A stretch of 64,000 nucleotides of DNA from Allacma fusca. Lineage: Eukaryota > Arthropoda > Collembola > Symphypleona > Sminthuridae. Each line of letters starts with the position of its first letter. Within the stretch, counting starts at the first letter, position 1. Positions 28,541-57,400 of the stretch are shown here, one piece after another. The DNA lies in NCBI GenBank assembly GCA_947179485.1, contig OX359246.1, positions 35,133,632 to 35,197,631 on the forward strand. The letters run 5' to 3'. The position numbers and the translations under genes are program-made. The notes under the pieces are model-generated. The model was given only the letters and a program-made list of their open reading frames with translations, was not told the DNA's origin and did no database searches.

Positions 28541-31500
28541 ATGGAGCGATCTGCGGAAATCAAGGATAATAATGTGGGCCATATCGGCAGTCGTCGACGA
28601 GTCATTAGTAAATCCCATTACTCTGCAGAGGATCAAGCTTTGGATCAAATTGCTAAAGAGGTAAATACTCTAAGATATTTATATTGGGGCTTATAATAAT
28701 AATTATTTATATAGACTATGGTGTCTCTGCTGAATACTAATACAACTCTCAAAATGTGTGTACTTTTGAAAAATATTAAAACCTGTATAGACCCTTGGCA
28801 AATGTTTGTCCTGGGATTTGTTTAACATCCAAGGATTAACAAGTAATTATGTATCCGCATGCACTTAATTACCTCTAAATGCATAATGAATGGAAAGTAA
28901 ATAGTAGTGTGGGAAAAGTTGATTAAACATGGGGCTTTTAGCAGAGATATATATTCTCTCTCTCTCCCAGATATTTACATGCACACAAGGACCTGTGAAT
29001 TTTCTGTCTTGTGTCATTTAAATTCTTCCTACATCTGTAGATACACACATACAGATGTCCCACAACATCAAATCTACGTGTGACTTTAAAACTAACGAGC
29101 TCAAAATGTTATTACCTAATTAATTTATCTACAAAACTCCATCATGTGCACGTACACATAAGTTTACTTGCTCAGGGGTAATTACTACAAAGGTTCTATA
29201 ACCAAAGTATTTTTATCTTGTTCCCTCTGCAAACGTAAAAAAAAAAGTTCAGTAATTATAATTATTATAGATTTGTACACCGCGGATTTAATTAGCAATA
29301 ACTTTATGATTTAACATATCCTTCAGATAGAGAGTATCCTTTACAAATTATTAAAATTAAACTAAATACATGGAATTGTTATGGAATCCGTGAGAATATC
29401 AAATGGGATTTTCAAAATTGTACGGGAAATTTTTTTTATTGCCCTATCCTACATATAATCTAGAAGAAGCTTCATAATGTTTCTACTGTATTCACAGATA
29501 TAAGTCCATTGTATTCTATACCATTGTACTTTTGCTTGGATTAAAAGTCCACTATATACACATCCAGCTCCTTTTCACACATACATCAATGGCAGGCAGA
29601 CACATCAACTCTTGCAGTAGTCCTGATACAAAACAATGAAAAAGCAGTCCCCCGTAAATTATGTAAGTGCAGGGAATGTACATACTTAATATGTTCTAGT
29701 CTACAAATGCTATTTAAATAGAGCAACTGAATAAGAGGAAAAAAAACGATGAACTCCACTGAAATCAGTTCAAGTGGAACAAATCCTAGCTGGTCTTAAA
29801 TCACTGTTTCAAAGTCGGCTTCTGTGTACTGTACATAACCTATTGGTATACTTATAATAGATATGTATATAATATACCAGGGAGATTCTATAGAAATGTC
29901 AACATATGTACATGACGTACATATGTATGTAATTACATATATACATTTCATAGAAATACTCCTATCCCAGCTCACCCTTAGACTCAATTAAGTGTCAGCA
30001 CCCATTCATCAAGCACACTGCAGCATGATAGTTTTAATGCTCCTGACGAAAAATCCAATTATGATGGTAGCGGAGTTCTGGTAGTAAAATGTAGTGAGAG
30101 AGGCTCTCTTTAAAAGAGTTTAATATCAACATTTTGACAATGAAGGTCTATAGTAACCGCAAGTCAGTAAATTATAGAGGACGGGACAATGAGTGCACTT
30201 TAACAGTAACGACTTTCACCACAGATTGCATTCCCAATTAGTCCCATGGATGTATCCACCTTGGACTCAAAGCCCCCGCAATCAGTACATCCCAACAAAA
30301 GCATAAAGATCTCTGCACTTTCCTCAAAAACTTAAGTAATTTCGGGTAATAAAGCTCCATATGAAATCCTTACGATTATGGTTATATCTCTCGCCCTTCA
30401 AAAAAAGGCAAAGGAATGACTGGATTGGAAATTGGTGTGAAAATAGTGATCGGGCCCAAGTGATTTTTTTCCCCTTTCCAGATCCATTCCACTAAAAGAG
30501 CTCTCATACAAAAAAAAAATAGATATACATAAGGATAATTACATTCAATGCTGAATTTCATTCCTTACATATGTATCTATTAGGAAAGGGTTAGTATAAG
30601 GTCTAGACGTGTCTAATGGAGACAAATTCCCATCGATTGGGCCCTTTCCTCAACTCTCCCTACTCCTTACACAGTGGCAGTTTACAGGGTTGAGTTTGTA
30701 CCCCACCTCGGGCTTTTCACACAACCCCGACTCTGTACATTTTATTTCTCCCTGGTTTCCCCACGTATAGTGTCATAGTACGAACATGTACAGTGTTCAC
30801 GTCTTTGGTCAATTACGGTAAATTGACGGGACTCTCCCACTACAATGTATTTACATCCAGACGCATGGACACACATTTCTCGGAGTTCCTTGTCGGGCGG
30901 AGAGTTGTAGGGAAAGCCCGGTATTTTACTTTTAAAAACTTGTGGCACTGCAGCTCTTATATATACTGTTGGAACAGGAAGAGGAAAAAGCAGGAGCAGG
31001 AACAGTATCAGCAGCAGTAGCAGCAGCACTATATAGGGGATACGGATTCATGGGAAAGGTTAAAACTGACGGCGTGACGGGCTTCCTGGGCTTGACATTG
31101 GGAGGAGGCAAGTTGAGTGAACCGGGTTATATGTACTCCTATAGGAGGGGATGGAGGGGGCATATACTATTTCTGCAATTCTTATTCGGTGCGGTTCTGG
31201 CGGTCGATGCGAATGCCGGCATTCATCATCATTCCCTGATATTTCTGTCAGGCTGTTGTTGAAACTTTTCTCACAACTGGGAAATTTGAGGAGGGTGTGT
31301 GTATGTGTGTGTGTAAGTGTAGATATGTATGTGTATGTGTGTATGTGTGTATGTGTGTGTGTATGTGTATATGTGTGTGTGTGTATATGTGTGGGTGCGG
31401 ATTTTATGATTACAAGGGAAATAGCGTTGTTTTTATAAAAATAGCTGAAACAACTTGAGGGAATAATTTGTATGGAGATTGTACTCAAATGATACAATAA

Positions 31501-34500
31501 CTAACTTGTAACTACCCCAGAAATGAGTAAATTGCTGTAGGTTCTGTCTTTGTATTTTTTTCTGTATAACTATCTATACTTAATGTAGAAATCTATATGT
31601 ACTCACTCCTCCCATGGAACATAGGATTTGTTGCCCATTCACAATTTATAAAATCTTTGAGCCAAATGGTCAAGGAATGGATGATTAAGACTGGGGGAGA
31701 GATAATTCAAAAACAGAGAGAACACACTCAAAGTGTAAACATCTGTTGGACAAATCCGGATTCGAGATTGTTCTCTGAACTGTGTTCTATATCTATGCAT
31801 GTGTGAATTTCATAGGAGAGACAGTGGATGTAGATATCTACACCACATACTATGTAGAGACTCCACACCAAACTGTGCTGGTAATTTCCTATTAAAGTGT
31901 AGAGTTAGCATACGAACATAGTCATGGGGAAAAGTAGAAAATTAGGACACACCTCTAAATGTGTTTAACAGATTCAGAGGTGACGTCAGATTTGCATCCT
32001 GTGTGCGTATGTTTGGGCCTCTCACTCATCACAACTACATACAAGAGCCTCTCATATGTAGTAGATATAGATAATTACATATAAGCACTTTGGAGAATAA
32101 TATTATTGAGGGTTGGATATTTAAAAGACTCTTTACAGGATGATGTGCCAGCTAAATCATTTTGGATTTGAGAGGAAAAAGGGACAACGGCTTTGGATTA
32201 ACTCAATAGTAAAAGAGATTGAGTGTATATAGTTACTCATATATGAAGGTTCTTGAAGGATCTCTTGTATATGTCAATCCTACTCCAATCTCTATGGCTC
32301 CAAGATCTGAGGTTTTGTACCTACATCTGGCGTCAGCATTAGCATAAAATTCATTCATTCCAATGAATTGAATTTCCATTAATTTTTAAGGCTTGAGTAA
32401 GCCCCCTGTTATTACTCCATCGGTCGGACCTATACATATAGTAATTGTAGGTTTAAGACCAGACCCTATGCTGACTCCAATGATGGCTCATAAACATAAT
32501 GTAATCAAATATATGACATGGTCGTAAGCATAAAAGTCGAGGAAAACCGTCCAAGTCAATGCTATTGGGGGAGGATTAGGCAATTTTTATCGTGTTTGTA
32601 CAACGACACGCACTGATGACTTCTCTCTCTCTCTTTTTCTCTCTCTCTCCGTCTTTAAAAATCTATATACACAAAATTATGCACACAAATTTTATGAGCT
32701 TTACTTCATTATAAACATCAACTGCACTCATAACCTTAGTCAATTTTTATCACCCCTTGCCTTATATATTCTCTCATCTCTCAAAGCTCTGAGCCTGCCC
32801 ATAACCACACATGTGTAGCATATTATGGGATATTGTACACCGCCAGGAGTACCAAATGACCAAAGGTTTAGTCAGTGGTAATTTCTAACCACTACTTTTT
32901 CTACTCTACTATTCACACAGACACATACACACACAAACACACACACACACACACACACACATACATACATCCACTTCTGAGAACAACGCTTCAAATTATA
33001 ATTGTTTAAAATACACTTCCAAAGTATTTGCGCAATGGAAGCTTCATAATAAAAATTAGCCAGTAGTGAGCGCTATAGCAGTAGTAGTAGTCCCAAAGAG
33101 GGATAGCTTTGAAACAATAAATAATGCATGGGAACATATCTCCATAAAATATTGCATAATATATAATGGCTCTGCTTAACATTACAAAACACTTAAATCA
33201 ATGATTAATTGATGACTTATTGCTTCACATACCTATTTACTATATATGACTCTTTTAATGAGCTCACTCAATCATCTCTATAGACCCTAAAGCCATAATT
33301 CCCAGTACATAAGGTACAAAGTCGCTATAGGTAAAATCCTATGTACAGAAGGTGTGGTAATACCTTTACTACAAGATTGCGGAGTAGGGACTACAATAAT
33401 AATAATTATTATTATTGCACCACAACCGTAAGAAATTCTCCACCTGCACTCCGCCAGGGACTCTTCAAAGGGAATTTCGGGAAAGTGTGAATAAATTGGA
33501 TTAATTTCCAGTCAGAATTTCACACATTGTCTTTCCCTACCCTGAAGAATTCCCTGTAAATTCTTGCATTTGATTTGTACAGATATTTCCCTTGAATTCT
33601 TTTATACACGTAATTTATAGTACGTTTTTAGGAGTAAATGAAACTAATGATGTGGGTTTCAATTCATTAGGATAATTTTTCTTGATTTGTATGAGCTCAC
33701 AAAAGAGGTAATTATTGAGATATCCTTTACACTTGTCAAAGTGTAATTAGATATTAAGCAAGTATAGGAAACATAAGTTCATACAGATCCAAGGATTACA
33801 GGGAAGGGACAAGATTAAAGGAGAGGGAAAAAAAGGAAAGAATAAAATATTGTTATCAGTCCATCTATCCGCCGCTTCATGTTAAACAATGAGCATGGCC
33901 GGATCAAGTTTGGAAGTTCTCATAAAGATGCTTGCCATTTCCTCAAGTCGCTCTCCGTCTCTGGCGCTTTTGGCACGAGGATTCAGAATATAAAGGTAGT
34001 AATATTATTATTGCCAACACAACTCCTTGGCTCGGTGAAGTTGAACATGACGATGGGAGGAAAAGATCGAGGATCTTCCCTATATGAATGCTATGTATAC
34101 TTAATCTTCGCTTGTATTGTTAACTACATGGACGTTCTCCTTCTCAGCCTCATGCGATAGCCCATACATATACATAATTACATACATAGTTATATCCTGA
34201 GGATATCAAAAAAGTTTAAACTTCGTTGGAGAGAAAACTTGTCTTTTTCGTACTGTGGCCCTCCCTCGTGACTCGTGAGGGTTCTTTTAAAGTTTACCGC
34301 CTCATAAATCAGTCAACCTTTCCTCAGTTGACATCATTCTCCTCTCATGATGTTTAAGTTTCAAAAAATTTTTTGAAGGAGTAACGCCAAAGCTGTCAAC
34401 ACTTATCTCAATGCTGTCGCTCCTATATATCGGGCTTGACCTTCAGAGCCCAATGCAATATAACTACAATCTTTTTTTTTTGGGGTGTGGGGATTTTTAA

Positions 34501-37500
34501 AAACTTCAGAAATTGAGGACCGTTTTGAGGAAAATAAAATGTGGGACTATCATTTCCGTCTGAAATTTGTGAAGGAACTTTGTCTGTGACACAACTGCTC
34601 TCCCTGCATTTAATATGTTGTGTCTAAATTCTATTAACCCTTTTGGCAGAGCTCTCGAATTGCATACGCATTTGCATAGTTGTATCATCAGCATCAGCAT
34701 ATTTTAGCATTTTCTGTTTTGATTCCTCTCACACCCACGAAATCATAGGAAGCTCCATGTGTTGTTGGGAGTAGGAGCTGCTGCAGGCTGCAGGCACTGC
34801 AGCAAGAGTTAAATACAAATAAGTATATACATATGAATGATACTCTTTAAATGTTATCAAATGTGATACAAGGATCCACCTACAATGGTTCTTCAAAAGA
34901 CATTGCACAATCCTCGTTACTTTTGTCAAGCACCGTGCCAAAAAATAATAAACATAGATATATAACCAAAAATTAAAGAGGTTTACGCCATACTTTCACT
35001 CATCCGTCCGAAATATCTATATATTAGTGTCAGATTATCTATATGAAGGGAAAAAAGCCATACAAATTATGAGTCAGAGAGCCTTAGGAAAGCCTTTAAA
35101 AATCCTAATTCGTTGACGTGTCAAAGACGAGATAGAAAAGTTTTAGTCTCATCCGAATGGAATTTCTCATATGCTCTTTTACCCGGCCAGCTACCTTTTT
35201 CGAGTCTCAGACTGCAAGTTTATTTTGAGCCTGTGTTTACTTTCACTTTTGTGTATGGGACTCTCATAGTGTGTGTGTGTGTGTGTTTCTATAGATAGAT
35301 ACATATAGATATATATAGATCTCTGTATCTACATATGACAGATTGAGTATACTACACTTATAGAGTCTATCTTGGTCCGTACACCCACGCTCTAAACCCG
35401 TCGTCCTGCGTGAATGAAACTCTACTATGTGTACATTTGTTGGGTCATCAATCATCAAAGTCCTTATTTTCCTTGAGTCTCAAGTTCCACTTAAGACCAC
35501 TCAGATCCGACAATATTCAACTATCTAATCCAATCACAATGGTCCATTCCCAATTTGACTTGCCCTCTCATCAAATCTCTTATAAATACTTTTTAAAACT
35601 AATAACTTCTCATTTAAACTCTGAATCAAAAGCATCCTCCACAAATCCTGCCCATTAAAATCATCTAGTTAAGAAAAATATGGGAGTTAAAATCCACATA
35701 GGACTCCTCATATTATTCACTCCAGGGATAAAAGCTGGAGCTGAGGCATATGGGACGCTCTAGAGAACAGACTCTACACATTAGCTATTTACAAACACAC
35801 GCGTTCCAGCCAAATTTTTTCATTCACCTCGTGTCGGAATTGAGAATAGACTCTGGGCAAAAGCTCATGGGAAATCTAAATTTGAGATATAAGGAGCTTT
35901 TGCAACTGTGAAGATTTTTTTTGGAGGTAAAATTTACTCCTCATGTGTTTTGTTAGTACACACGTCCACATACATATGTATGCATACTGTAGTGTTAGAA
36001 ATAATTATTACTCCTTTACAATAACTAAAATAAGGATTCCTATACGAAGTTTAACATCTACTGTATTATATTTTCTTCACAATTATTCTTTTACAGTGTA
36101 AACTGAAAAGGCCAGAAAAAAAGATCGTAAATTGCTCTCAAAACCCTCTCTATGGGTACTTTTGCTCTGCAAATCCCCCTTCAAACAGCCAGCATATATT
36201 ATGTATACAGACGTGAGGGTAGTGTAATTCTCCACGCACAGCCGCATCTAAAATTTAATGTGGCGTTAAAATGTATGAGCAAAAATTTCAGAGGGAAGTC
36301 TGCTTCCAGTTTGCAAAGAATAGTGAGTGATAATTAAGATTCATGGTAAACAAACAGTAGCTATACAGTATATACAGGCTTGGATGGAGTGGGACCACAT
36401 TTACAATTGTGTAATTCCCCAAACCTTATGGAAATCCACGGATTAGCATGTGCTTGTTAAGAAGGTAATAATTATATGAGGTGTAGGGTGTAAGAAGCCA
36501 AGGGTAATAATAAAGCAGCTGGGAAAGAAAATTTGGAGAGATTCTAGTAGTTCATATCTTCCTATAATAATTATTATATTGGAAGCTCCTCTGTCCTCTC
36601 ATATTTAGATAGATACAGATACTAACAAAATCCAAGGGGGATAAATAAATGTAATTAAATGTAATTATCTATACGAGCTGTACATAATTACAGGAGTATA
36701 TTTTGAGAGTAGAATCGTAAATTTGTTATTTGTTATTCACAAAAGCTCAGGGCATATATGGGATATGTTAAATAATATGTAATGTGGTTCATCATTGGAG
36801 GAGGATTTTGTCGTGAGGCATTCTTTTGGATTTCTCAAAAGGAAAAGCATATATGCAGTGAGCGGTGTCAAGTTATTTCTGTCTTGGAAAAAAATGTGAT
36901 CGTGTGAAGACGTGTGGTTGTTGTGGGATATGCATTAGCAGTACTTTCTCATCTCATGTGGAGGGGCAAAAGCAGTAGTAGCAGTTAAAGGAGCCGTAGA
37001 AGCTTCAGAGTTCCCACTATTTAAGTTAAGGTATCAGCCTCTATGTCTAAATGGGGAGAAGATAAAGAAGGAAGAAAATATACTTTTGGAACCATCTCAC
37101 ACTATTCATAGCTTTGTGCTATATATGTAGATATATGCTGATGCTATTTTTTTCAAGTATAAGCATCCCTCTGTGTATAGGTCCAAAACACACCTCGATA
37201 TGCATAATTATGTGTCTGTGTATGTTTGAAGATGGTTAGGAAGCAGAGCAATTCCAAACCAGCCTACTACCATCACTTCGGTGTGCATTCCATGTACAAA
37301 CATTGGAGTAGATTTTTTGCAAGGAGGATTGTATTTAGGAAGAAAAAAAACAGGCATCCGAGTTTAGTAACATTCGGGCTTGGGGATATATCCTTCGGAG
37401 TGAGTATTACTCCTTACTCTGACTTCATACACAGTACGGAAGGATCTAATTGAAAACCGGAGCAACTCCCAGTTGATCCTGAACAACCAGTGAGTAACAA

Positions 37501-40500
37501 CTGGACTTTGTCTGGTGGTACTTAGCCTAATGTGAATTCAATCCAAAATAAATATTTCCTTCGGAAATTTACCTTCCAACTCTCTGCCCCCAAAAAATGG
37601 AGACAGACAGGGAATTTTATATTCAATAAATTTCCGGAAATTATTGCAACTAGGAAAAATTTGGTGCCCTGACCCAGGAACAACAGTACAAGTCCAACGG
37701 GGTTTGTGATTAGGGAGGGACAGGACACTGTAATAAATATTATTACAGTTCATTCAATTCAAAAGAAACCCTTCAAAATGTGAGCCTCAAGGAGGGAAGC
37801 CCAATCATGACGGATATTTACGGAAGCATTTACGTCAAGAATTACCGATCGGATCGACTCCGCCTCAGGCAAAAATATGGCTACACCTCACGCCATAACA
37901 GTACCGACAGTCTCCATTCCGATTACCCCCCTGTGGGTCAACACTATGGCCTATCCTCGGGCCTCAGCTCCCTTGCAGTATCCACTGCTGACCTAACAGC
38001 CATCTCAAATTCAAGTAATAGTGCCACCAATGCCACCCTACGCTCCTCCTCCGGCTACAGCTCCAGTGACTTTGGCTCCTCCCTTGGGAATACATATGAG
38101 AATGAGTCCAGACTCAATCAGAATGGGTACAGTCCTCCGAGTTGTTACCCGAGACAGAAAGCTACCCTTCAGTCCTTCGAGAGTCCGAGTCAGGCTCAGA
38201 AGCCTAAATATTCTATCCTAACAGCGGCAGTGCGCCTGAGCGCGGATTTTTCAGCGGGAGGTTTGAATAGCCGCGCTGCAAGCAATATTGATTTGAGGGG
38301 TCAGACGCCTTATAGTAGTCATGCGGTGTTGCCTCTCAAAACTGGCCTGGCCTCCAGACCTTACTACCAGTACCAGAGGACCTACTCAGGAGGGACGAAG
38401 ATCCGATGCAGCAGCGCCGATCCGGATAGTTCGAAGCGCCTCCTGGCTGTGGAGAATTCTTCCACTCTGCAAGTCCCCCCTGTTGTGAGTAACAGTCTGA
38501 TGATGAGGTACGGACGGTATCAGACTCCCAGTGGGGGGGTTCCTCCTCGCACCGGGAATTTTTCCTCGAGCCGATGCGCCAGTGCAGATCGGTTCTGTCA
38601 TGCTGGGACGGCGGGTAGCACACTGGGGAACAGCATGATATCCCTGGCATCCTCCCTCTGGTCACAGTACAACAGCTTCAGTAATATCTATGAGAGCAAT
38701 CCGAAGATCAACGTGACATGCATCGCTAGTCCGACTGTGGACTCTCTCGCGAGATACACTCCCGTCACGGAGCTCGCCCGGAATGTCTCGAGCTACAAGT
38801 GGGACCCGGATGAGGTTCATAATTCCAAGAGCTATGCCCTCGGCCGGAGTAACTCCAGCCTTGCCATTGGCTACAGAGGGAGCTATGAGAATAATTTCGG
38901 ATCGAATAGTAACATCGCATCGGCTTTTTCCAATAAAGCTGCCACTCTACCGTCCGGCTGGCTCCCCCCATCCCAGCGTCCCTCATTGTCCCGGGAAGTA
39001 TCCATGGAGGAGAAAGCCCAGGACAATATCTTTGAGGTAATTAATGAAGAGAAAAGTTCGAGAGGGAGTGAGGACAGTTTTAGACACAAATCCCTGGTTA
39101 CCATGAATGGGGGTGGGAAAAAGCATGGTTTTGAGTTGGATGCCGAGGATGAGGCCACCCTTGCTAGAGTAAGTTCCCTAATTTCCAATGGAAGCATTTA
39201 TGAGCGGTATTCCGAGGCGGGTTTGTCATATGTTTACAAAATACTATTATTATCATATAATCCCGCATGTATATAATTATATGTATGTCCCATATGTACG
39301 ATCCCGTTTCCTTTGCAATCTTCCCCGTTACGAAAGCGATAACATAACTTTGGACGTACGATTTCCAAAAGCTTCCCCACTCCAACATTTGCACGTGCGA
39401 GAGTGGCTCCTCCGTAGTTTTGAACACTTTGTTTATTACATTTGGTTTCGGTGTGGATAAAATCAGTTAATAATGGTAAAAAGGTAGGGCCGTCGTACAT
39501 GATGAGGAAGTTGGGTTGGGAACTTCAGAAGTTCACTCTTCTATATACATAGGGGCCTATAATGACTTTTCGAAAGGAAGTCATTGAAAGTTCGGAAGAA
39601 TAGAGGAATCTTGATTGAATCAGTTGGTGCACAAATTGTGTGTATGCACGCAAGAATTCTCTTAGGGAGTATAAATAAATCCTATGTTTGTAATAAAATC
39701 AAGGAGGGATAAAAAAAAATCCTTTTAGTTTTTCAACCCAACCAAGGAATCCTGTCAACATTAGAACAGAGCCTTGGCTCAAGATTCACTTCATGTATCT
39801 ACCTATACAGTAGACACACATATATTAACATATGTCCTACGGTGTTCCCTGTACTCACAGGGAACACTGCACTGCGGACTAAAAAAAATTCTATAGTGAA
39901 TCCTGTTTGGGATGAATTTTGCCAGAGAATTCCTATCCTCAACTGAGATTATCCCCTGTGAACAAGTTCATTTATACACTGGCTTTAATTCATATCCATT
40001 TTTCTGTGGTTTCAAGCATGAGACTTCTTATACCAGATGTAAATAGAGGACAGGCCATATAGCCTATGTACACAGAGGTCTTTACTATACTATGCCTTTG
40101 TATTTACACACTATGCTTCCATAATTACGTCCCTATACGCATGGAATCCCTACGACAGTTTCACACATTTATTTCTTTTCGGTAAAAATTTTGCTCTATT
40201 TGGTTTGACAAGATTTTGATTCTTCAGAGAGGTGTGGGAGATATACCTTCAGCTATAGAGAGTCTTCCCTCATCCAAAACAAAATCACATCTGTACATAT
40301 AATTAATCATATGCGTATACAGATACACACGTACATTCTATACATAGTATACAGGCGTGCATACATTTTTTGTGTGTATGTAATGATCTATAATGTGCTG
40401 TGTGTATAATGAACATGTCATGCAATGTTGGGCAATTGGATGTGCTCATATATGCAGGATTGCCAAAAGAGAGTGAAATAGTTGTCATGTATAAGTTGAT

Positions 40501-43500
40501 ATGGTGAGGCTCTGTCTCTGTATCGGCAGTCGTGTAGGAAGTAAAATTAAAATGAAGAGTTTATTTAAGAAGCCCTCAGTAGTAAGTAAGTAACTGCCAG
40601 TCTCCCAAACGCACACACACACTCTTTTTGAGGAAGGCGATGACATTTGTCCGACTCCGTGGAGACTCCAATGTTTAAATATATAATGTGAATGTGAGCC
40701 TGTAGGGGTCTTAGAGATTCGTAGATACATATATTTACTTTAATAGAAGGCACTGCTGGTAAGGGGAAAAAATGTCTCTGTCTCTAATGCCTACCATTGT
40801 CTTTACTCTGTGTATAGGTAAAGATATACAGTACTGTGTGTTTATATATGACGAGAAGAACAATAATAGTAAATAGTAGACTGCCGAATCTTTTTTTTCT
40901 CTCTCACTCTCTCTCTGTATAGAGAGACACACTCGTGGAAGCAACAGGAAAGCTAACTTCTGTACAAATACACACTAACCATCAAATGTGAGATAGTACA
41001 GAGAAGATGAGTTTCTTTATTTGCTGGGACTGACAAAAGGAAATGTATTATTTAAAGTTATAGTGTAGGAAGAGGATCCGCATGTTTATGCACACGGAGG
41101 CCCTTTTACATAAGTACAGTACAATATACATACACACGGTATAGTAAAGCACCAGCAGTCCGCCGACAGGATCCCACTCCATAGGGTGTAGATCCTTATA
41201 AAAGGAAATGGAATCAAAAATGGGGAAAACGTGAGTGAAACCTCAAGTTTTGGGATGGGAAATCAAAATGATTCCATTCCACTCAGGGCGATGAAGAGAG
41301 AATGGCTTCAATTTAAGTATTAGGGAAATCATTGGAAGGATCAAAAGCTTGATTGTAACGACCTCATCAATAATATTTAAACCTTCGTCTCATCAGTCCT
41401 GACATTAAAATATTCTACAAGCGGAAAAATCATTCCTACTTTTTTTTTATACACACTCAAAAATTTCAAAGGATGAATTAACTTCCGTATATGCAAAAGA
41501 ACAAGCAGAGGCATTGAGTACCTTCTCTACTGTACTCCCTGCAATTCTCAACTGTATTATAAAACATATGAAACATACAGTTTTCTGAAGAAGAACCCCG
41601 GCCCTATGTGTACTTACAGCATATATGTAATAACACATCCACTATACATAGATACAGACATTCTAACTAATTGTCTCGAGGGCAAGAACAGTTACACTGA
41701 TTGCAAATTTATAAGACCTGGCTCGTCCAACTTGCTAACCTGCATTTAATTTCATCGTAAATACTTAACAGCGAGAATTGTAGTCTCTCCTCATATTATA
41801 TATGAAGATTTTTTTTACAAATTGTCCCATGTGATCTAGTGGCAAGGATAGGAGTAAACTCCACACACACATTAGTATGCACAAGAAACTACACACACAA
41901 ATTATCAAGTACCGAAGATGATCAAGCTTTACAACCACAACTTCCAATGATTGTTAGTTCGAGGAGAGTCATTTCATGTTATGTAGCGGAGTGTCTCAAA
42001 GGCATATAGATTTTAATTATATACATGTTCCTCCACTTGTATATCCTCTTATTACATATGTACTTTGGGACTTGGGAAGTGTACAAGAGTAAAAACTACA
42101 TGGAAAACATCCCAAGCCTCCTTTTGCTCCTCTCTGTAACCAATTCCTCGAGAGACGAGAGACTTTATCAACAAGTTATTGACGGTCCGTTGTCAAACTG
42201 TTGTGTTTTCTTCGACGACGGCAAAAACACTCACATTTCCAGCCCCATGTACATAGAGATACATAACTTCCAAACATAAGTCAGGACTGTCTATCGTGTG
42301 TGTGAATTTTTCTTTTAGTTTCAAACCTCCCTTCGCAAATGCATTTGCTCTAGGGATAAGTTCCTATATCTAGGAACTACAGGTACAGTAATCCTCATTT
42401 AGGTTCCCAAAAAAAAAAACATTTTGCAGTGAGTTACTTTTTGGTTAGGCAAATGTGTGTATACTTATGTGTGTGTGTGTGTCTACTCCCTGTAACTCGT
42501 ATATAAGTAATGTGCTGGTGCGGTGGTTTTAAAAAAAAAGTTCTCTTGTGATCTTTTTGTTGAGTTGGTTTTACGGTGTTGTTTCCTCCGTTCGTTCGTT
42601 CGTTCGTGCAGCACATTATTTTCTTTTGAGATTCTACTTTCTACTATAATACGCTCCCAAGAAAAGTCGCGCAATACTACGGTATTACGCGCCATGTAGG
42701 ACTAAGCCCACTGATCCCTTGCTTTGTTTACTGTTTAATGTGTCTATATAGGAGAATGTAACCATCATATACAGTCTATGCACAGTCAGAGACTCAGAGA
42801 GAGACAGTTCGTAAACACTTTGGAAACCGTTCGGATAAAATGTACGTAGATATTTGTATCTGCTCTTCTCTTCTATAGGTACGTGTAGGTATACGTTGGA
42901 GCATTTAAATAAAATCACACGTCCCTACTTATATACACTCAAATGACAAAAAACGCTTGGAAGGAAGCTTTAAAAGCCTGAAGCCTGAACTGCTAAACTA
43001 AAAACCATTTGACTGTATACATATTATTACTTCGTAATGTAAATCCATGTATTTTCCCCCCCTCCTGGCACATCACAATCATACATACATAATTATGTAG
43101 AACGTACATACATACGGGAGTGAGTGTGCCCACAAATGTATACATAAAAAAAGCCTTACTTTTCATATATCTATATAATGGTGGTCTGGGTTGACATGGA
43201 AGTTTCACACCTGTGAGAGACTCTGAATGCTGAAGCTACCAGTACTTTAATGTAGACTTTGAAACTTGTGAATTTCAGGGTTTAAAATTGCGAACACTGC
43301 ATTTCCCTCCTCCTGTTTTTTCCTCCTTTGCTGAGCAATTATTGTTATTATTTTACCATCCAGCCTTAGACCTATCGGAGCGTTTCAGGAGTTGTGAATT
43401 TGAGCTCATCATGTAATCAGTTTGTTGTTGACTGTTCTATCACCAGCATCCAAGTTACTAGGGGTTCCCAGGTCTATAATATATACATACATAGCACTGT

Positions 43501-46500
43501 ACTGTGTAACTATAATTATCCCTTCCCTGTACTCAATCGAAGTCTCACAAATTTCCTCCCTGTTTTTTTTATTACTATCGAATCACTCCATCAACTCCGC
43601 TCTAGATATATACTAACTGAGGGATAAGAGGTGCTGTGGAAGTGTCGGGTGGACTTCAGTGTTTAATATTCCGTGGATCTGTCCGACGTGTAATTAACAC
43701 TCTGAGTATTAAATTATTGGGAGTGTAAAAACAAATTAGAAAATACGGGTGGAATTAATTGGAATCGTGCTTTACGTACGGAATTTCTACCGACCATACT
43801 GGCGTAACATTTTGGAAAAAAATATAAACCCACGGACTAATTACCCATGTACATGTGTTCCATGACATGAGACCGAGTTACCTGCTACTGCCCTTGTTGT
43901 TACTACTACTACTACTCCGTACATATTAATAAAGCCTCCAGAACTGATCGAAATGTTTTCAGTGGAGAGGGAAATTCTATATTATGGTTTCTGAGTAAAT
44001 ACAAAATAATACTGTGCAGTCGACATCAAGTATTAATCTGGACGTAAATAAAATTTACACTAACTACACCCAGGTACGTATATCTAGATATGTATATTTC
44101 TATTTAAAAAATATTGTTAATATTTATATGAGCTCATACGGGATAAATATTGACAGTAGCCGGAGGAAATAGTGTCGGCTCAGCTTCAAAATGCTATTTC
44201 ATCGGCGTTTATTTATATTTGTATTTGGTATCTAATAAGTATATCTATGGATGCCTGACTGCCTGATTCTGATTCCTCAAAGGACGTTACACCCTTCCAA
44301 TGTGGAGTAGAGCTTCAATCCTCCCTCTAAACATCTATCAATTTCAATGTTTGAGTATTGCAGCCTTTCCAGGCCTATTATGTATTTATTTTGAGGGAGT
44401 CAAGATCCTTTGCTGCAGAATTGACATTTTTTTTCTATACAGTGTGGAATAAATTCCTATCTTGTATTTACATACGCATGCATATGCCTATATTTATATG
44501 AGTATCTATCTATCAATGGAATTTTATACAATTATCTTTAAAAACGCAGAGTGTGAATCGCCACGGAACAAACATTGGGTTAATATTTCCTACTGTAAAA
44601 ATTGTACAGAAAAGTTGGGAACACCTGCAGTCCTTATTATAACCTATGCTTGATTGAACCTTATGGAGTATAAACTGTCTCGTCTCTGGTTTGAACATTG
44701 ATTATTGTCACTCACTTCTCTACCAGCCTTTGGCTTGCCTTTGGCTTGCCTTTGGCTTGCCTTTGGCTTGCCTTTGGCTTTCGGGTTGGTTGTATAGATT
44801 TAATATAAAAATCTGAATGAGACTGTGACGAAGCCCTGGATCTCCTTGGCGAATCAAATTGTAGAAGCTATAAAGCTCCATGTTCTCACGTTATTAGGGA
44901 AATCCCAATAGTTTTTGAATTCCCAAAGTAAATAATGCTTGCGAAGGTGGTTCACAATCATCACACAATAATAATGGCTCAAGTATAGATACCATAGTGT
45001 ACAGAGGGTATAATAAGAATCAAAAAAAGAGAGAGATAAAAAAAAGCTTTTAGAATAAAAATCCATTTCAACTGAATTGGAACTTCCTTCATGTGCTATG
45101 CTCATGTGGGAATCACGAGATGTAACTTTGCGTAAATCTTATAATATGATTTCGCACACCATTACTGGGAGAGACTGTCAATCCTATATATTGGATAATA
45201 AGCCGAAAGGGTAATTTACCTTAAAAAAATCCGACAAGTTTATGAGTTGTTGACGTCGTCATATGGAGATGCCAAGAGGGAAAAATAGTAAATCAGAACT
45301 AACCCAGAAGAATTGACATCTCTGTGTACAACACCGCCTATGGATGTGTGACTCTGTTCACACACAACTTTTCCGATAGCAATAAATGGCAAGTCATTGT
45401 GTGGTAATGGACGGAGAGCTGGTATCTATACTTACTAGAGTGGCCTATGCACAACAGTCCACGTGGAACAACTACACAGACTCCAGGTAAAGGATGAGAA
45501 TAATGCTCCATGGGATATAAAGGGGAAATCTATATCTATGGGAGGATATACAGTACGGATTTCGGCGTGGGCATCCAAACCCATTGCTTATGAGTACCCT
45601 CACGTTCAATTATTACATTTTAATAATTTTAACGGAATCTCGTTAAAATCTTTCTTGGAAGTACCTATACAAGTATCTACACTCACAGGAAAAAAAATTA
45701 TTTCCCTAACTTTTCCTCCATATTTTCCTCCTAGCAAAGGCTCGTGTGTACGAAACATACCTTCAAATCCTCATAAACTCAAGTTGAAAATCGCATATTC
45801 TAAACTGAAAGACATGAATAAGTAAATATGATATGAGTTTTGCAAAAAAAAATCCAAGGGACAAAATATTCCAACAAGATTGTGAATTTTGTGATGGACA
45901 GTAGACAACCCCAGGATTTTATGCCAGATCACGTCCTATTCAAATCTAGATACTTCTGCATGGAATCTTTATGGCTCACTCAAATTAGCAGGACAAACCT
46001 TCGGGATGGAAATATATTTTAATAACGTAGGAAGAGAGAATGTAAAGGAGTACGGGGAGACTCCGTATATTAACTCTCATAAATATTCCCATAGGTACGT
46101 AATTGTAAGTCCTTTGGGAGAGCAAGCTTCGTAATGTAATATGTACATTTCCTTAAAAGTCCTAAGCATTAGAAGAATTACAAGTCCGCTCGGAGGAATT
46201 TTTACGCAAGCACACACAAACAAGTGCAGGAGCTTCCCTTAATTTGATTGTTTCCATATAATCAGGTAATGACGAGCGTATACTGTAGAGATATACGCGC
46301 GTGGGTTTCAGCATTCCCTATGTAGAAATCCCTTGCAGAAATAAACATTACTGTATGTACATTTCACTTCTTTGAATGTCTCCAGTCCTGAATCAACTTA
46401 TTATGTCTATTGTTTAAAAGGCACAATTAGCTCAACAATACTTGATGACTCCTTGATAGGGCAGGAGTATAGGCAAAAAGAGAGAGAGAAAGAGAGAGAG

Positions 46501-49500
46501 AGAGACGCTCCCAATGAGGCCATATAATTCTTATATGCTCACATACATACATGCATAATTACATAAAATAGGAAATTAAATCCTACAAGTATTGTCCTGT
46601 CTGTCATTGTCTCTTGGTTCGTACACTCCAGCAATGACTGAAATAAACATTAATTCACTTGTGTGAATCTGCTCCGTTTAACTTGCTCGAAAATATATAC
46701 AGCCTCTGTTAATTATGAGGAGCAAGCCTCAAAAATCCTATTACACTTGATGCTATGCTATGAGACACAAGTCCACACAACAATTGCATGACTGTCAATT
46801 CTAAATGTCACTTGTGACAATATTGTAAAATGTTCTCAAGGGAATTTACTCCACAGAAATTACTCCCTGTGTAATATACATACAAGCTACATTCATAGGA
46901 TTTGAACATTATGAAGACTAAGGGACCCATTCAAAATTAATAAACAGTATTTGTTTCAGAGTTGAGCAGGACTTTGTCTTCTTGGTTTTTATTCGGACTT
47001 GTGCAAGTATCTATCTTTATACTGAGAGGGCTCAACAGCCCCAACTCTATAGCGGAACATATGTTTAAATACCTATTGATAGTACATCTTACTTTGGGTA
47101 ATTTTGTATGTATCTACCTGAGTAGTAGTGAGATTGTTCAAACTATAATTCCCTGTGAGGCTTCGCCCATATGTACAGTTGTATATGAATTTTTTCATAC
47201 CTACACACAAAGTGGGATCTGAGATTGTGGAAGCTTCACCGAGCTCGTATATATTCTAGAGACTGAAGTTCGAGAGACATTGAAAAGTTACTGTAACATC
47301 TACGTGACAAGGTAAGGACCACACCAAAACGTTAATAATTGGAAAGAGACTTGTGGTAATGAGCTTTGTCCATAAGTTGGTGACCATTTGCTAGAAACCA
47401 TAAAGAAACTGGTATAATTATCCGTTCCTGTCTTCCCATCTCTGTGTACTCTTCCTTTTGACATAGGAGCAGTAATTATTTATATGAGCGTACACAATCC
47501 CCTATCACAGACTACCATTTTTCTCAGAGCTCCAAGATGATCCAGTAATATTTGTGGATCCATACATACATACATAGATAGTCATATTATGTTTGTAAGT
47601 ATTCACTTTGAACTTACGAAACAGGGACGTGTAGTGGAGCAGAACTAAATGGGGAGACCCTGCCTCCGTTCCAATCTTCCTGATTAAATCTGACGGCTGA
47701 CGAATCCCATATGATTAGACACGTTCACCCCACTTAAGGCCTAGTTAAATCCCACAGTCGGTCTTAAATGACCGCTTGACAGACAACCTAAGAAAAACAA
47801 GATGGGAAGGATAGTTGTTGGTTATTAGTTCCCTGTCAGTATTTATAATACGTGTATCTATCTATATGTGTACATTTCAATAAAGATTACTATACTAACG
47901 AGGGCTCACTATATATACCTATAGGTATACAGAACTTCATCCCTCCCCCATACATATTACACTCCTGAGATATTTACATAATTTTAATCCTCCGCTCCTC
48001 CAGCATAGTTATAGACTTAGGGACGTATATTAATTTTAATTTTTCTAACATTTTCCCTCAAACAACAAATAAACTCTAAACAATATCAGATTACGTAGGG
48101 GCTCTCATATGTGTATGACAATATGGACTCCAAATACCACACATTTGTATAGGGAGGGCGCTGACTGTCTTCTAGATGACAAATCCGTTACTATGTACAT
48201 ATTTTTGTTTAGGAATTCTGATAGCGGCGCTGGGCTTGACATTTCAGATAAAACACGTTGATAAATCTAATCCCTTTTGCATAAACAGTGCACTTGAACT
48301 GACGGCTTGAGGGAAAGGAGCTGGAGATAATTTGAACTGTGTATAAATAACTATGAAGTTGTATGTAATATCCAACTCCTCTAGTTTCAAGTTTCAGGGG
48401 AGCTCAGGTATATCAAATATGGAGGGAATTGAGTAATCCATTCGGATATGTAAAATTCCTTGGAAATTAATTCCTGAGGCGTGTAAAAGTGCACTTAATA
48501 CAGTACACATTTCCCATTTTGCTATTTGTAAAGTCTGGAGATACACTTACCTTTTGAAGTATCTATAGTGAATTTTTTAAAGTAGGTATCTATAGATATA
48601 CAAGTAATTACAGTAGCTATATGCACAAATTATACCTAGGGATATACATTTAGTGATAGCTTTTTTTTAGCAACAAGGGGAAAAATTCCACTGGAGTTTT
48701 TAGTACCCTGACTTAGCCCTGGCTGTTGTGTCACATTGGAATGGTATCAGTCAACTGATACCAGAAACTGTGAGAGTATCATGTGTGAATATGCCTAGCA
48801 GTATCTATATACCTATCTGTAGATATTTGTGTCATTCCCTGAGACTCCTGCTCCTCTCTGACAGTTCAGAGGTGAGTGCTATACATATCTCAATTTTATA
48901 TGGAGACGAGAGAAAAATAGGAAAAGTAAAACCACCATTATTCAACACCGCGTCAACGACTACTACACCATACGTCCTTAATGGTATTTATTTCCTTGCA
49001 AAACTTTAATGTCATATTTGGCATTGATGTTCGAGGAGAAATATGACAGGGCAGAACGTGAGTAGGTTTCAACTTATAGAATTTCATCTTGACTACTTAA
49101 CATAGGGACGGATATCTATACGTACAAAGTGTAGTATATTTTACAATGTGTCTAAAATTCTGAGCTCTTTTGCAGGGAAGAGCGAGCACTCGTTTAAAAG
49201 TATACACTTCATGGCATATATAGCACATTATTGATGGCTCACACACACACACACACACATTACACACCGTGTACATAAACTTGAATACATTGAAACATGA
49301 ATTGTGTGAACACCGGCACATCCCTGTCCCATCATGTTATATAGACATACACAGGTGAGGATTCCAAGCTGTGTGCAATTATTATAGGATTTTCAAGAAT
49401 TGTTTTTCTTTAGGGAAAGGTGTGTATATACTTAGCTATAGAGTTATCCCCTAATGAATATTTTTAGTATGACTTTTTGGAACAATAGTTGTTAACTATA

Positions 49501-51391
49501 CTTATGTATCTATATGTATAAGTAATTATATACATATATCCCATAGCAGCCCATATACTAAAGGCAAAAGTCTATGGATGGATGAAAGGTAAATAAATCT
49601 GCGGAGGGCAATTATGTAGATGGAAGTGTGAGTGTACGTAGTTGATGGATACTGACTATAGTTGGGAGTAGACTCTATGCTCCTCTGACTGTGGGTTTTA
49701 ATATTATGTGATAAAGGTAAAGATATGTGTGTGTGTGTGTGTGTGTGTGTAGTCAGATTTGGGCTGACTCGCTCATTCCCATATGTATCTCGACGATCAT
49801 ATAAGTTCCCTCAGTTAGTCAGAAAAGTGTAGCAAATTTTAGTATGTTATTGTTTGTCTCATTACGAATTCCATGGAAAGGTATTGGAATATATTAGATA
49901 TGGATAAGCATTTAAACGGGAGGACAATAGGTTTTTACCTTTGCATACTTATATCTATGTATGCATCTATGCTCATATATATTTATATATACACCTAAAC
50001 TACAGTAAGTACACACATTCAAACAGGCCCAGAGAGCATGTTTTGGAGTCCAGCCCCGTGTAATATATTGTATGGGATAGAGAGACACTACAAGTGTCTG
50101 TAGAAACTATAGGGGCTTATTATATACCTATACCTAGATAGATTTACATGCTTCATTATGATTATTACGGATTCAGTTTTCTTTCGCTCGTCTACCTACC
50201 AGTCAGTCTTGATCACTCGTGGTTGTGGCACTAGCCAAAAATTTTTCGTTCCATCCCCAAGAACACACACTCGAACAATTAGACGGACGGTTCTGTGCAT
50301 ACACACATAATTACATATATCTACATATCTACAGACAGGCAGGCAGGCCCTGACTCTACATACACTCACCTTCTCATCTCTAAAAGCCCAATAATAAAAT
50401 GTAGCTTGGGAACAAGAAGAAAGAACGTGAACAATATTTTAGCACCACGTACGGAATAATTATTCTACATAAAGTCCCTCATGTATTGTAATTGCTAATT
50501 TGTACATTGTCAGAAAACCTTCACATCTCCTAAGACTTCTTCCACCTACATTTTATTCCCAAACACATGCACAACCATACTGCTCTCCTTACAATTATTA
50601 GTAACACACCCCATGAAGGAAACCTCCCGTGCTCAATAATAACCATACCTACAGTATATAGCAAAAGTAGTCTTCCTTTTGACACCGAAGCCAATAGATT
50701 TTTTGTGTGTGTGGAAAAGTGTCTGTGAGCCAGGAGTTCTGTGACCGTACAAAATAATAAACGTTTTTTTCTCAATTTAAAGCAATTGACAAAATTGTGA
50801 TTGGAAATTGTTATCATTACCTGTGAAAAATATATTTGCTGGGGTGAGATTATAGGGCTATTCCCTATTTGTAAATCTCCATTTATCAATAGATAAAGGA
50901 TAGATTTGCAGCACTGCCCATAGATCTTACTTACGAACTTCCACACACACACACACACACATACACATACACATACAGACACTATTATCACAGTGAGGGA
51001 GAATTTGCTCAATCTTCCTCCAGAGCGACAGCCAGCTTACCTTGAAAACAACTGAGGATTTACGAGGTTCAAAGAATATATTTACGAGAAAAGTTGAATT
51101 TCCCCTGGATCGGTGTCCATCCCAGTATACTATGAAGTAACTTGTTTGTATTTGTCATCAGTACAAGGAGTAGGAGCATCATTGGAGCAAGTATTTAATC
51201 TCTTCTGTGTGTACACTGTGGCTGTCCCTTGGTATGTACATGTGTGCGTGACGATTAAAATGGAGAGATCTCCTCTCGCCAAAAAATTCAGATCATTGTC
51301 AATGGAAGGATCCCCATCTCAGGAGATAACGTATTATTATTATTACAGTGTGCTCATCATCATTAAAGGATATTAGCTCCAGTGCTGATAC

Positions 51392-51429
<38 letters not shown>

Positions 51430-54400
51430 ACACTCGGATTTTTTTTTGAATACACACTGACTGTAATAAAAAAATTTATCCTGAGATATCTATACATACA
51501 AGGATTGCGGCTCTGTGGCAAAAGTGAGAATCAACGATAAACCTCAGATGCAGCTCATTAAACCGTCTGACAATAATAAGTGCAAGTGCTCATGCGATCA
51601 CGCGAAAAATGCACTTTCCCATCACTCCCAGTCACCCTTAATTGTGTAACTTTTGCCTGGCCATTCCTACATATATGAGGGTGTGCGTATGTCTGTTTGT
51701 GTGGACATTGAGATTATTGAATTTTTTGAGGGTCTACGCCTTCAAAATTAAAAACTAAAAATTAGGTAATTGGATTTACGAAAAACCTATCAACTTCCTC
51801 CCATCACATCATTCTCAGTGTTTTTCTTTTTTTTTTGGGAGTGAGGTCAGCCTTAGGAAAGGAGACAGATTATATAGAAGCCTTTAAAAAGTCAATAGAG
51901 AAATGTCTTCATTGACGTAATGTCCAAGGCGTTCCCAATTTTGTCTCAGCCTCTGACTCACTATTGTGTGTATCTATGTGTGAAGAGCCCAAGTGTGTAC
52001 AATACAATATAAAAGGGTTTTAACTCCCCACATAAAACAATATCTATAGATATAATTATATATATATCCCATACATCACATAAAGCCTCGTCAAAATTCA
52101 TTATCATTTGTGGTTTCATCAACTTTTTCTCCGTATAGTTCCTTCTCCCTTGACTTTTTCAAAATCAGTTGAGGATATAATATTGTGAAGAATATAGTCC
52201 TCTCCGTGTGTGTGTTTTTGCACTGTGTGTGTACTGTAAACTCCATGAGAACTTTTGTTTCAAAGGCGAGGGAGTAATGTGCTCTTAAAATATAAAGGAA
52301 TTTTCTCAAGGAATTTTTCTCACGATAATACAAAAGTATTCCATCAATTTTGCTTTCCCGTGTGTGTCTGACTGTGCAACTTCCAAATTCGCAATATCTA
52401 TTTCACCACTGAAATTTCCGAAAGTAAAGTGTGTGCAAGTGTTTTTTTTTCTGAGTGAATGAGTCTCTTTCAGTGTGAGTGTGTACAGAAAAAAATTTAA
52501 TTTAAAATTACGTTCTTTGAGAAGAAATAAAATAAAATAAAATGGAGACAGATTTGGATCTCCTGGAAACTGATATAGATCAAGTGCTCGAGACAGTACA
52601 GAGCAGTGTGGGCCAGACAATTAATTCCAAGAGAGTCATTATTCCTCAAGGTGAGAGTCTCACAATAAATGTGAAGCATTCAGTGACTGAGGATGACCCC
52701 GGAACAGCAATCGATAACCCGGAGTCGACTGTCAAAGACGAAGGTTTATTATCATTACTGGAGCGGAATAATGATGAGATCCCAATGCAGATCCAGACTA
52801 CTGCAGTGGGAGCACCCGACCCAGTCGTAATTCCCGGAGCGGACTCCCAATCTCCCGTGCCAATAAAAAATAAACAGGAGCCAGCCTGTCCTGACCCCGT
52901 CACTGCAACAGTCACTGCTGCAGACGTCTCCCTCCCAGAAGATCCTCACGAGCGAAGTCCCGAGGAGCCGAGGAAAAAAGATAAAAATGCAGAGACCGAG
53001 GAAGACCCCGAGATTTGGTGTGATGCCCGAGAAGACATCACTTCCACCAGTGTAAGTGATGATGGATTGAGTCCAAGCAATTCCTTGGATCAAGTGGGTG
53101 AGGTTCCTCTGACTGAGCCAGCATCTCCTTCACATCCACAATCTCCCTCACCATTCTCAGAGTCAGAGTCAGAGTCATCGACGGGACGCCTGAGAGAGAG
53201 CCCAGATGAGGTTCAAGTCCTACTCTCAGAGGAAAAGAAAATCCGTATCTTGTTAGAACATGAAGATACTAAAGTCTCACCTCAGAACGTTACCTCCATC
53301 GCTACATCGAACCATGTAAGTGTGATTAGTACCATTCAACCGGAAGTGAACATCATTCATGTCAATCCCCTCAAATCCGAGAGTGTGCCAGTCAACAATC
53401 CCCTCCTGATCGAGTCCCTGCCAGTCAAAGCTGCCAGTACCTCCGGCCCAAATTCACTGGTTACCATTCAAACCTCAAGTCAGTCCTTGTCGAAGGACAG
53501 TTGTGGAAACACCGGAGATTCGGAGTCTTCGACAGATCACTCTTACCTCCCAGGGACCACTACCATTGAAATTAAAGACGTTCCAAGTGACACTACAGGG
53601 ACCAGTGACGGGGAAGGAGCCAGGATTGTTGAAGGGCAGGCATCTCCTCAGGAGAACTTGGACGATACTGGGGTTCATTTGATAGAGCCTGAGTCCCTCC
53701 TAGAAAGTCCAAACGTTGGGAGTGAGGAAGAGTCCGACGTTGAGGATGACTTTGAAGAATCCCTCGAGAAATTAAATCCTAACCCTGATCCTTCCCTGTC
53801 AGCACCTCAGCGAGCCAGTGTGAGTAGTGCGAGTGGGCGTCGGTCTAGTTTTGCTAGAGGAATTAGTGTTTGTGAGGAACCCTCAGATGATCAGTCCATT
53901 GTGGATTATCTTTCGGACGTCCAGGATGGCGTAATACTATATCATTCTTTCCCCCCTTCGAAAAACAAAAATTGCTAGATGCTTTTTTTTTTATTGCTGT
54001 CATAGCTTTCCACATAACAAAACAAAACATTAGTAGATAACATCATCAGAGGAATTAAATTCCGCTCAGAACATATCCGACATAGCACTAGTAATTATTT
54101 AAGAACCATTTATAATCTAGTACGTCAAAAACTCATGCGCAAGTATCTAGATACTACTTACATCCACATTTTTTTGTAATTTCCTCAAGTCCTCCAGCAA
54201 CACAGACACATGTAGGCACATTTATAGCCACGAACTCAAAACGACCATCAAGGTTAGCGAGAGGTAACCTGAGATGAAATTGCAACTTGCACATGGATCT
54301 CAAGTAACCACACACACACACATGAGTTGAGGAGGGAGTGTAGGATTTATATGTAGATATTTTTTGGTGATATTATATCTACTAGAGAAATTTAAATGCG

Positions 54401-57400
54401 TGGATATATAGTCATCCCCAATGGATCTGGGTTGACCACACGCTACAACAACCTTCAGGATGGGCTTGCTTATTTTTTGATCTCAAGTGTGGATATTTCT
54501 ATCCAATCCGTATACATACAACGTGTCAGGACGGACGGACGGAAGGTTCCCCATTATATACGTCCCAATTTAAAATAGTATCTCCATTAATGTAACCGTA
54601 TTATTTAGGTACGGACTTGATTGCACTCTCCGCTCCTTTATACATCAGCCACTTTGTATGCATCTCTCGGGTCAGGGAGGAAAAAATCAGTTTGCGTCTC
54701 ATATCATATAATAAATATAGTCAGTGGACTGGTAAATGGTGTAGTTGAGAGGGTTATTCAGAGTCGGGATTTTCATCAATCGTTGGAGTATAGTTGACTG
54801 CATTCTACAAAGAAGTGGTCTCTCTATCAGGAAATCTTTATTATATCTATCCTCTATAGTGTATTATATATCTATAGATATACTTATACACTTCCCAATC
54901 TTACCGTTCTTCAGTCTGGTTATTAGGCATTGAGGCGAGAAATTACCTCCTCGCACGACAAAAGTTCTTCCTATTGTAGATCACATTTAATCTGTAGACT
55001 CGATCACACTTCCAAAGTATTTATAGAGTGCCAGAGCTAATAGCTATTAAAGCTAGGCAAAAACTAAGAACAATACAAAAGTAAATAATATTCACGCTTC
55101 GTGGCGATCTGCGTGAGGTCCAGATAAGAAATAGCAGTGTGAGTCCCAATCCTTGTAAAAACTCATGTCATCCATAAAGTGAATCAAAGTAGTCCCGTGG
55201 ATTTATTAGCAAGGGATCCAATCCCAATAATAGCAAATCACTGTTTACACAAAACCACTCTGATATATATGTTCCTTGTGTGTGGACGTGGACTGTCGTC
55301 GGGGACGACGCTAGTCTGAATTGATCTCAAATCCCTACTCAGGAAGTACAGTTGTAGTCCTGTGGTTTGGGGAACGTTAAATATTCTCAATTCAGGATAA
55401 AATTATGTATTCGGGAGGGATTTCAAAATTATCTGCTCTTTCTAAAGCTGGATCTTATGAGCTCTGGTTCAATTCACATTCTTGTGAAGGAATATCTGTA
55501 ATGAGATAGATACTTAAGTAAATAGTAAATACTTAATTACCTGTGTATATAAAAACAATGTACCATTGCCCCAACTGATCTAGTTCCAGAGTCAACACCT
55601 GTAATCAGAAGTGACTCTCCAAGAAAAAAGTAGCCCAGATGGAGTGTGTATAATTCCTCAATCAAAACCATTATCTCTCTGGTTCGTTCAAGGGTGGAGG
55701 TGAAAGGGTTAAGACTCCGTATAGCAGCACATTATAAAGTGACTCTTGTCTACGGTATAGCCACAACTCTAAGACACTATAATTCTAAGTTGGAACAACC
55801 ACTTTGGACTAACGTAATTTCAGGAACTAGATAATACAATTATGTCATGAGAATTATTTTCTTATTACTCACAATCCGTCCGAGCTCCAAGTACATCTTC
55901 CTGAACGCCTCATCATCTCGTACGTTAGTACATTCTGTAAAGTATACTTTTCTTGTAGTAATTTCTTTTTTGAGATTTGTTCATCTACGAGAGCTATTAT
56001 ATAAGATAATCTTTGAAAGAAGGAATTCAAATGTTCAAATCCCATCCTAGTAGTACCCCCAATATTTTCCTCAAAATCAGAGTCTAAATAAAATTTAATG
56101 ACTGGGATGATAGATGAATTATTTTAATTTAAACAAATTGGTTAAGTATGAGACAATAATTGTTTCTTCTCATATGGGATTTAAACTCAGGTTTATTAAA
56201 ACTTAGGTTTGTTAATCTGGTCAATACAAAAAAAAAAGAGTTGGCGGAACGGGACTCAAAAATAAGTTTTTTTAGGATTTCTCGTTATATGCAATAACCT
56301 GCTGTCATTTCCTTTGAGCTAACTCTTTGGACCTGAGCCCTGTGCCTTTGGAGGCTTTCCTATTCCGAATCGTGTAATTAAATAAATTGTCAAAATTATT
56401 ATTCCCTACATGTTTTTCTCTATGGGATTAAATGACCGGTTTTATATCTGTAGTTTTAGTAAATGATTGCTTTGGAAGACTCACAATCAGTGTTCGGAAG
56501 ACCTATAGGTACTTTTTGCCCCTTCCTATCTCCGAGTGTTAAAACATTGTCTTCCTCTCCTTTAAAGAGACAGCTCTGTATATTATTGGTTTAGTTTTTT
56601 TTTCTTGTTTTTTCGTGAAGACTAACTCACGACATGGTGAGGGTTTCGTCCAGAGAGAGAGAAAGAGAGAGAGGCAGGGTAACAAATAAGAAGCACTCCA
56701 GTTCATATATCTTATACAGACAAGGCGGAATTCCAATAGAGAGAGACGTGTTTGTTGTTCCGTAATTCCGTCCATACTTTCCTTCTGACTCTCCAAGGAA
56801 TTTGTATTGCCAGAGCATTATTTATGACTTCAGCTCTTATTAAATACATTGTTGAGGTGAGGATGTTGGATTTTGGTTTTTAGATACATAGGAGTGTATA
56901 GAAATCAAAAAGTAATAATAATTGTTATTTGTGTTCTTTTTTTTTGCTCCTCCCTTATACATAATCTCATATCTTAATAGCCATTGGCTTCTGGGGAAGG
57001 ATTTTATTTTTCAAACGTTTGTATGAACTTGAATTATTACATTATTAGAGTACATACCGGGGCCATAAATGTTACACCTGTTTTACGGAACTGATTACAG
57101 TACATGGATGACTCGGAGTTAGTAGTTCTGGTGCTGTGGTGCATAGCATGAAGTCATAAAAGTATGTAGGTAGAAGGATCTCTCGGATCCAAGTTGTTTG
57201 TTCCTTGGAGTCGTCAGCTTAATAATTACACGAAGGCTCGACAGTTGTTGTGAGGTTTCCTTCTCAAGCTGTGCTTTCCGAGTGCGTACCAGTAGTTGTT
57301 GGCTTTGGGGTCTCTCCGATACCCCTCACAATGTATTTTCCCTGTCAATGAGCTGATAGGAGACGGAACCGTTGATTAACTCTCTTCATCCATGAATCAT

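Follow-up and report, generated by a model that had tools for sequence, protein, structure and literature searches.

A 454-codon stretch inside the first intron of an LRRFIP-family gene of the springtail Allacma fusca, here called exon A, is protein-coding and is probably an alternative first coding exon of that gene. It lies in a window of 64,000 nucleotides (contig OX359246.1), which is the whole stretch of DNA analysed and to which all coordinates refer. Such an exon had been proposed in an earlier note on this DNA. Its coding status, the loss of coding signal at a GTAAGT donor, the phase match, the single copy in the genome and the rank of 60525, which no phase-0 acceptor surpasses outside a second open frame of the intron (ORF B), fit the proposal; the region upstream, where the TCAGT initiator is missing, tells against it.

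As envisaged here, a promoter inside intron 1 would start a transcript that opens its coding sequence with exon A, which contributes a 454-residue, Ser/Asn/Tyr/Arg-rich and probably flexible head. Splicing from 39168 to 60525 in phase 0 would then replace the 40-residue head of exon 1 (28541-28660). In either case, a short helix-starting end would run into the common AEARLAARR helix, and either head could be attached while leaving the coiled coil intact. The long form would retain this coiled coil, through which relatives dimerise and bind Flightless-I. The added head could recruit other partners, and its composition may suit it to phosphorylation and clustering.

The host gene and its short form

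In a profile search, the host gene reaches 337 bits over positions 1-300 of the Pfam LRRFIP model PF09738 (cut-off 28.2) and, by this match, is a member of the LRRFIP family; its name, LRRFIP2 as opposed to LRRFIP1, is taken from the earlier note. The three matches to PF09738 in the genome (392.7 Mb, 91 contigs) are each within the window, and on this count the host is the sole LRRFIP-family gene detected. Exon 1 followed by eight common exons (60525 to 63216) gives a short form of 426 amino acids, and exon A sits in the 31.9-kb intron between them (Table 1). The first position of the Pfam model coincides with the first common residue (AEAR). This agrees with a family that varies upstream of that point, and it also makes the model uninformative as a test of the junction. 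An Rfam search of the window gave no match.

Table 1. Features of the LRRFIP-family locus, in coordinates of the window
Feature	Position	Strand	Description
Exon 1, coding part	28541..28660	+	40 codons; 13-residue end stretch; donor GAG/GTAAAT (exon/intron), phase 0
Intron 1 of the short form	28661..60524	+	31,864 bases; predicted from sequence
Start-stop ATGTGA	37778..37783	+	sole other ATG in 37601-37810; 29 bases before the ATG of exon A
Exon A, proposed alternative first coding exon	37807..39168	+	454 codons, ATG to donor
Second in-phase donor-like site, inside exon A	39037..39042	+	GAG/GTAATT (exon/intron)
Donor GTAAGT after codon 454	39169..39174	+	phase 0; last codon AGA at 39166-39168
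Two AATAAA signals	39674..39697	+	at 39674 and 39692; basis of the proposed local 3' end
ORF B	52542..53978	+	478 codons, acidic
First common LRRFIP exon	60525..60654	+	phase-0 acceptor; opens AEARLAARR
Common exons 2-8, through the stop	60765-60913, 61003-61266, 61453-61588, 61709-61894, 62205-62284, 62403-62507, 63106-63216	+	

By eye, WD40-like exons, perhaps of CSTF1, are found immediately upstream of the LRRFIP gene (~24357-26090, plus strand). Further away, open frames resemble those of EcKinase-type proteins (~17997-19516, minus strand) and of chemosensory receptors (2866-4284, plus strand; 5611-7948 and 10009-14753, minus strand), some of the latter being similar tandem copies.

Coding status and limits of exon A

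The coding status of exon A follows from three properties. It occupies the longest stop-free frame of the window (37714-39276, 520 codons), with maxima of 244 codons in 1000 local dinucleotide shuffles and 189 in 40 shuffles of the whole window. Its base-by-codon-position information amounts to 0.0362 bits; the common LRRFIP exons give 0.0436, and the maxima are 0.0063 in 79 overlapping intron pieces of equal length and 0.0137 in 2000 shuffles. Finally, a genome-wide protein search with exon A (four candidates scored) found one copy, namely itself, and thus gives no sign of a repeat. Codon usage was set aside as a test in favour of the codon-position signal, being too weak to decide: with a training set of 15 sequences (16,528 bases), the log-odds of exon A are 0.087, higher than in any of the other five frames, and the maximum of 15 intron pieces is also 0.087.

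Where coding starts and stops was assessed with three positional frame models, built from the first part of exon A, from ORF B and from the LRRFIP exons, respectively. Ahead of the ATG (37714-37806), the frame of exon A scores -2.3, -3.8 and -3.6 and is the best of three with one model only. Its signal is weak in 38899-39036 (-1.9, +0.2 and -3.1), yet the frame is the best of three each time, and it is clear in 39037-39168 (+4.9, +6.3 and +2.7 bits; other frames -9.1 to -15.6). Past the donor (39169-39273), the values fall to -6.9, -3.8 and -3.7, and the frame is the best under none of the models. GC content is 0.526 in exon A versus 0.34 in the tail, and a GC segmentation places the right edge at 39022. 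Coding thus appears to begin at or near the ATG at 37807 and to stop at GTAAGT. As the frame signal is lost there, 108 bases before the open frame ends, a splice at GTAAGT is the natural reading. The extent, intronic location and phase-0 donor of exon A all agree with what the earlier note had described. The weak signal in 38899-39036, the segmentation edge at 39022 and the donor scores, which with generic weights are 4.18 for 39037 and 3.33 for 39169, count against an end at GTAAGT, and a shorter variant is possible.

The encoded head contains 18.5% Ser, 6.6% Asn and 5.7% Tyr, and with 46 K/R and 36 D/E it is near neutral; its composition suggests that it is probably flexible or disordered. 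The motif repeats RCSSAD, RCASAD and RAASNID were given no weight, as they were picked after reading the sequence; the pattern R.[CAS]S[AN], one among eight tried, has three matches in exon A (shuffle P 0.001). With exon A in place of exon 1, the fused protein would have 840 residues instead of 426. At 1.97 times the short form, this nearly doubles the protein, and the earlier wording, 'more than doubling', was slightly overstated.

Proposed splicing into the common exons and competing readings

The ends of exon A (39168) and exon 1 (28660) share phase 0 with the acceptor at 60525, whose phase and AEARLAARR opening are as first reported. The two exon ends had also been said to mirror each other, and they do so modestly. 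With exon 1 alone as query, exon 1 itself ranks first among 948 open phase-0 GT sites of the intron, the site at 39037 inside exon A second, and the end of exon A, with a score of 21, fourth and tied with the third. When two human motifs are added, the end of exon A comes second of 863 after exon 1, with a score of 22.3; the highest value reached by 1552 minus-strand sites is 18.7. If the comparison is restricted to the 22 sites whose donor score is 3 or more, the two sites of exon A rank directly after exon 1. Random draws of residues reach 22.3 in 27 of 20000 trials when taken from the last 60 residues and in 2 of 20000 when taken from the whole of exon A. Both ends carry Ser or Asp before AED (SAED... 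or DAED...) and lead into AEARLAARR; Ser or Asp at such a position is a usual start of a helix.

The promoter is the weakest link of the proposal, since TCAGT is absent from 37000-37850 and this region holds, as promoter-like elements, a TATATA at 37120, one weaker initiator match at 37750 and nothing else. The ATGTGA upstream of exon A could dampen translation. Use of exon A as a cassette exon after exon 1 is less likely, because 37714-37806 lacks frame signal. Three phase-0 acceptors precede the ATG of exon A, with 8, 9 and 6 pyrimidines of 17 (60525 has 10), and these counts by themselves would not exclude a cassette exon.

The destination of the splice separates the preferred reading from an unlikely one, in which exon A starts an unrelated protein of a nested gene on the same strand, with further exons in the intron, or splices into ORF B. 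The acceptor scan from 39200 through 60525 covered 445 phase-0 sites, each preceded by 9 or more pyrimidines of 17. Those inside ORF B reach 125.4, the best at 52632, as a nested gene would lead one to expect; however, ORF B starts at an ATG of its own, two codons past an in-frame stop, and the frame signal from this ATG is +4.2 with the LRRFIP model versus -2.9 and -15.6. Outside ORF B, 60525 is the best acceptor (12.4) and the next scores 6.8, which leaves a nested gene without a stronger phase-0 acceptor before 60525, although the minus-strand control reaches 12.2 among 434 sites and a short unrecognised exon may thus escape the scan. A scan for internal exons outside ORF B gives 7.2 at best (in another phase) and 4.6 for the best phase-0 exon listed, with 10.8 for 60525-60654; it places the ends correctly for 3 of the 7 known internal LRRFIP exons and can therefore overlook short ones, which again leaves room for a nested gene. 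A point against a nested gene is that the likeness of the end of exon A to that of exon 1 would then be due to chance.

The open frame also allows a local transcript, that is, an intronless nested gene read from the ATG at 37807 to the stop at 39276 (489 amino acids), with its RNA ending at ~39674-39692, where two AATAAA signals occur. This is quite improbable: frame signal and base composition shift at 39169 and not at 39276. Least credible is that exon A is what remains of a mobile element or virus, or a frame devoid of function. In 240 kb of the genome, 36 frames reach 200 codons or more, and by eye many of them look element-derived; this and the weak codon usage of exon A speak for such a reading. 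Against it, the frame of exon A is intact with a codon-position signal, one copy was found in the genome, its best Pfam match (E 0.082) is below cut-off, and no match was found in PDB up to E 1 or in NCBIfam up to E 0.1. Pattern matches numbered 7 in viral and 14 in prokaryote contigs, none being confirmed as a relative.

Known LRRFIP isoforms and a possible third head

Variation at the 5' end has precedents in the family. In the shrimp Litopenaeus vannamei, LRRFIP2 has seven variants (A-G) with three kinds of 5' end, and the Nasonia gene has two isoforms that differ only at the 5' end (PMC3585381). The proposed springtail arrangement resembles both in joining several 5' ends to a common body, but all seven shrimp ORFs measure 876-1344 bp, so that their heads are small, none being of the size of exon A (PMC3585381). 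In human LRRFIP2, a choice of isoform within the same family likewise alters partners and cell behaviour, but through skipping of an internal exon (exon 7) and not through a first exon (PMC9616898). Human LRRFIP1 shares the common coiled coil used for Fli-I binding and dimerisation, and the N-terminal domain of one of its isoforms matters for Wnt signalling; in contrast, the accessible portion of that account describes no comparable single-exon head (PMC6406849). By analogy with these relatives, the coiled coil of the host gene would bind Flightless-I (PMC6406849). A fly relative, CG8578, is reported to bind Rab6-GTP and to be located at the Golgi (PMC4232348). Outside the family, KS-WNK1 combines an intronic promoter with an alternative first exon that is needed for condensates; this protein is unrelated and its exon adds 30 residues, so that it offers a precedent for the principle only (PMC12321387). 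Titles and abstracts in the open literature on LRRFIP2 isoforms, promoters, first exons and springtails mention no such head. The 454-residue head is therefore likely to represent an unusually large new form of the known 5'-end variation of LRRFIP2.

LRRFIP proteins have been linked to Flightless-I, to Toll-like receptor signalling and, in the fly, to Rab6 at the Golgi (PMC6406849, PMC3585381, PMC4232348). An alternative head bears on the question of how one LRRFIP gene serves such varied roles. If the preferred reading of exon A as an alternative first coding exon is true, promoter choice can swap about half of the protein in the springtail, and annotation based on protein similarity can miss heads of this kind, encoded by single, unmatched exons in long introns.

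ORF B itself has a codon-position signal of 0.044 and encodes 90 D/E and 31 K/R. A Pfam search gave no match up to E 0.1, and the one NCBIfam match lies below its cut-off. The frame signal of ORF B extends as far as ~53929 and becomes ambiguous over the final 45 bases; a phase-0 donor-like site at 53931 scores -4.4, and the eight LRRFIP donors score 2.06 to 8.09. ORF B could be either a single-exon gene nested in the intron or a third head. It is tempting to imagine a gene with three mutually exclusive first exons, namely exon 1 (40 amino acids), exon A (454 amino acids, Ser/Tyr/Arg-rich and near neutral) and ORF B (~463 amino acids, strongly acidic), the last two placing flexible heads of opposite chemistry on a single coiled-coil scaffold. 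This idea is speculative and rather doubtful; if true, the choice of promoter would decide what the scaffold clusters with. Between exon A and ORF B, positions 44726-44780 hold a perfect tandem repeat of five copies of an 11-base unit.
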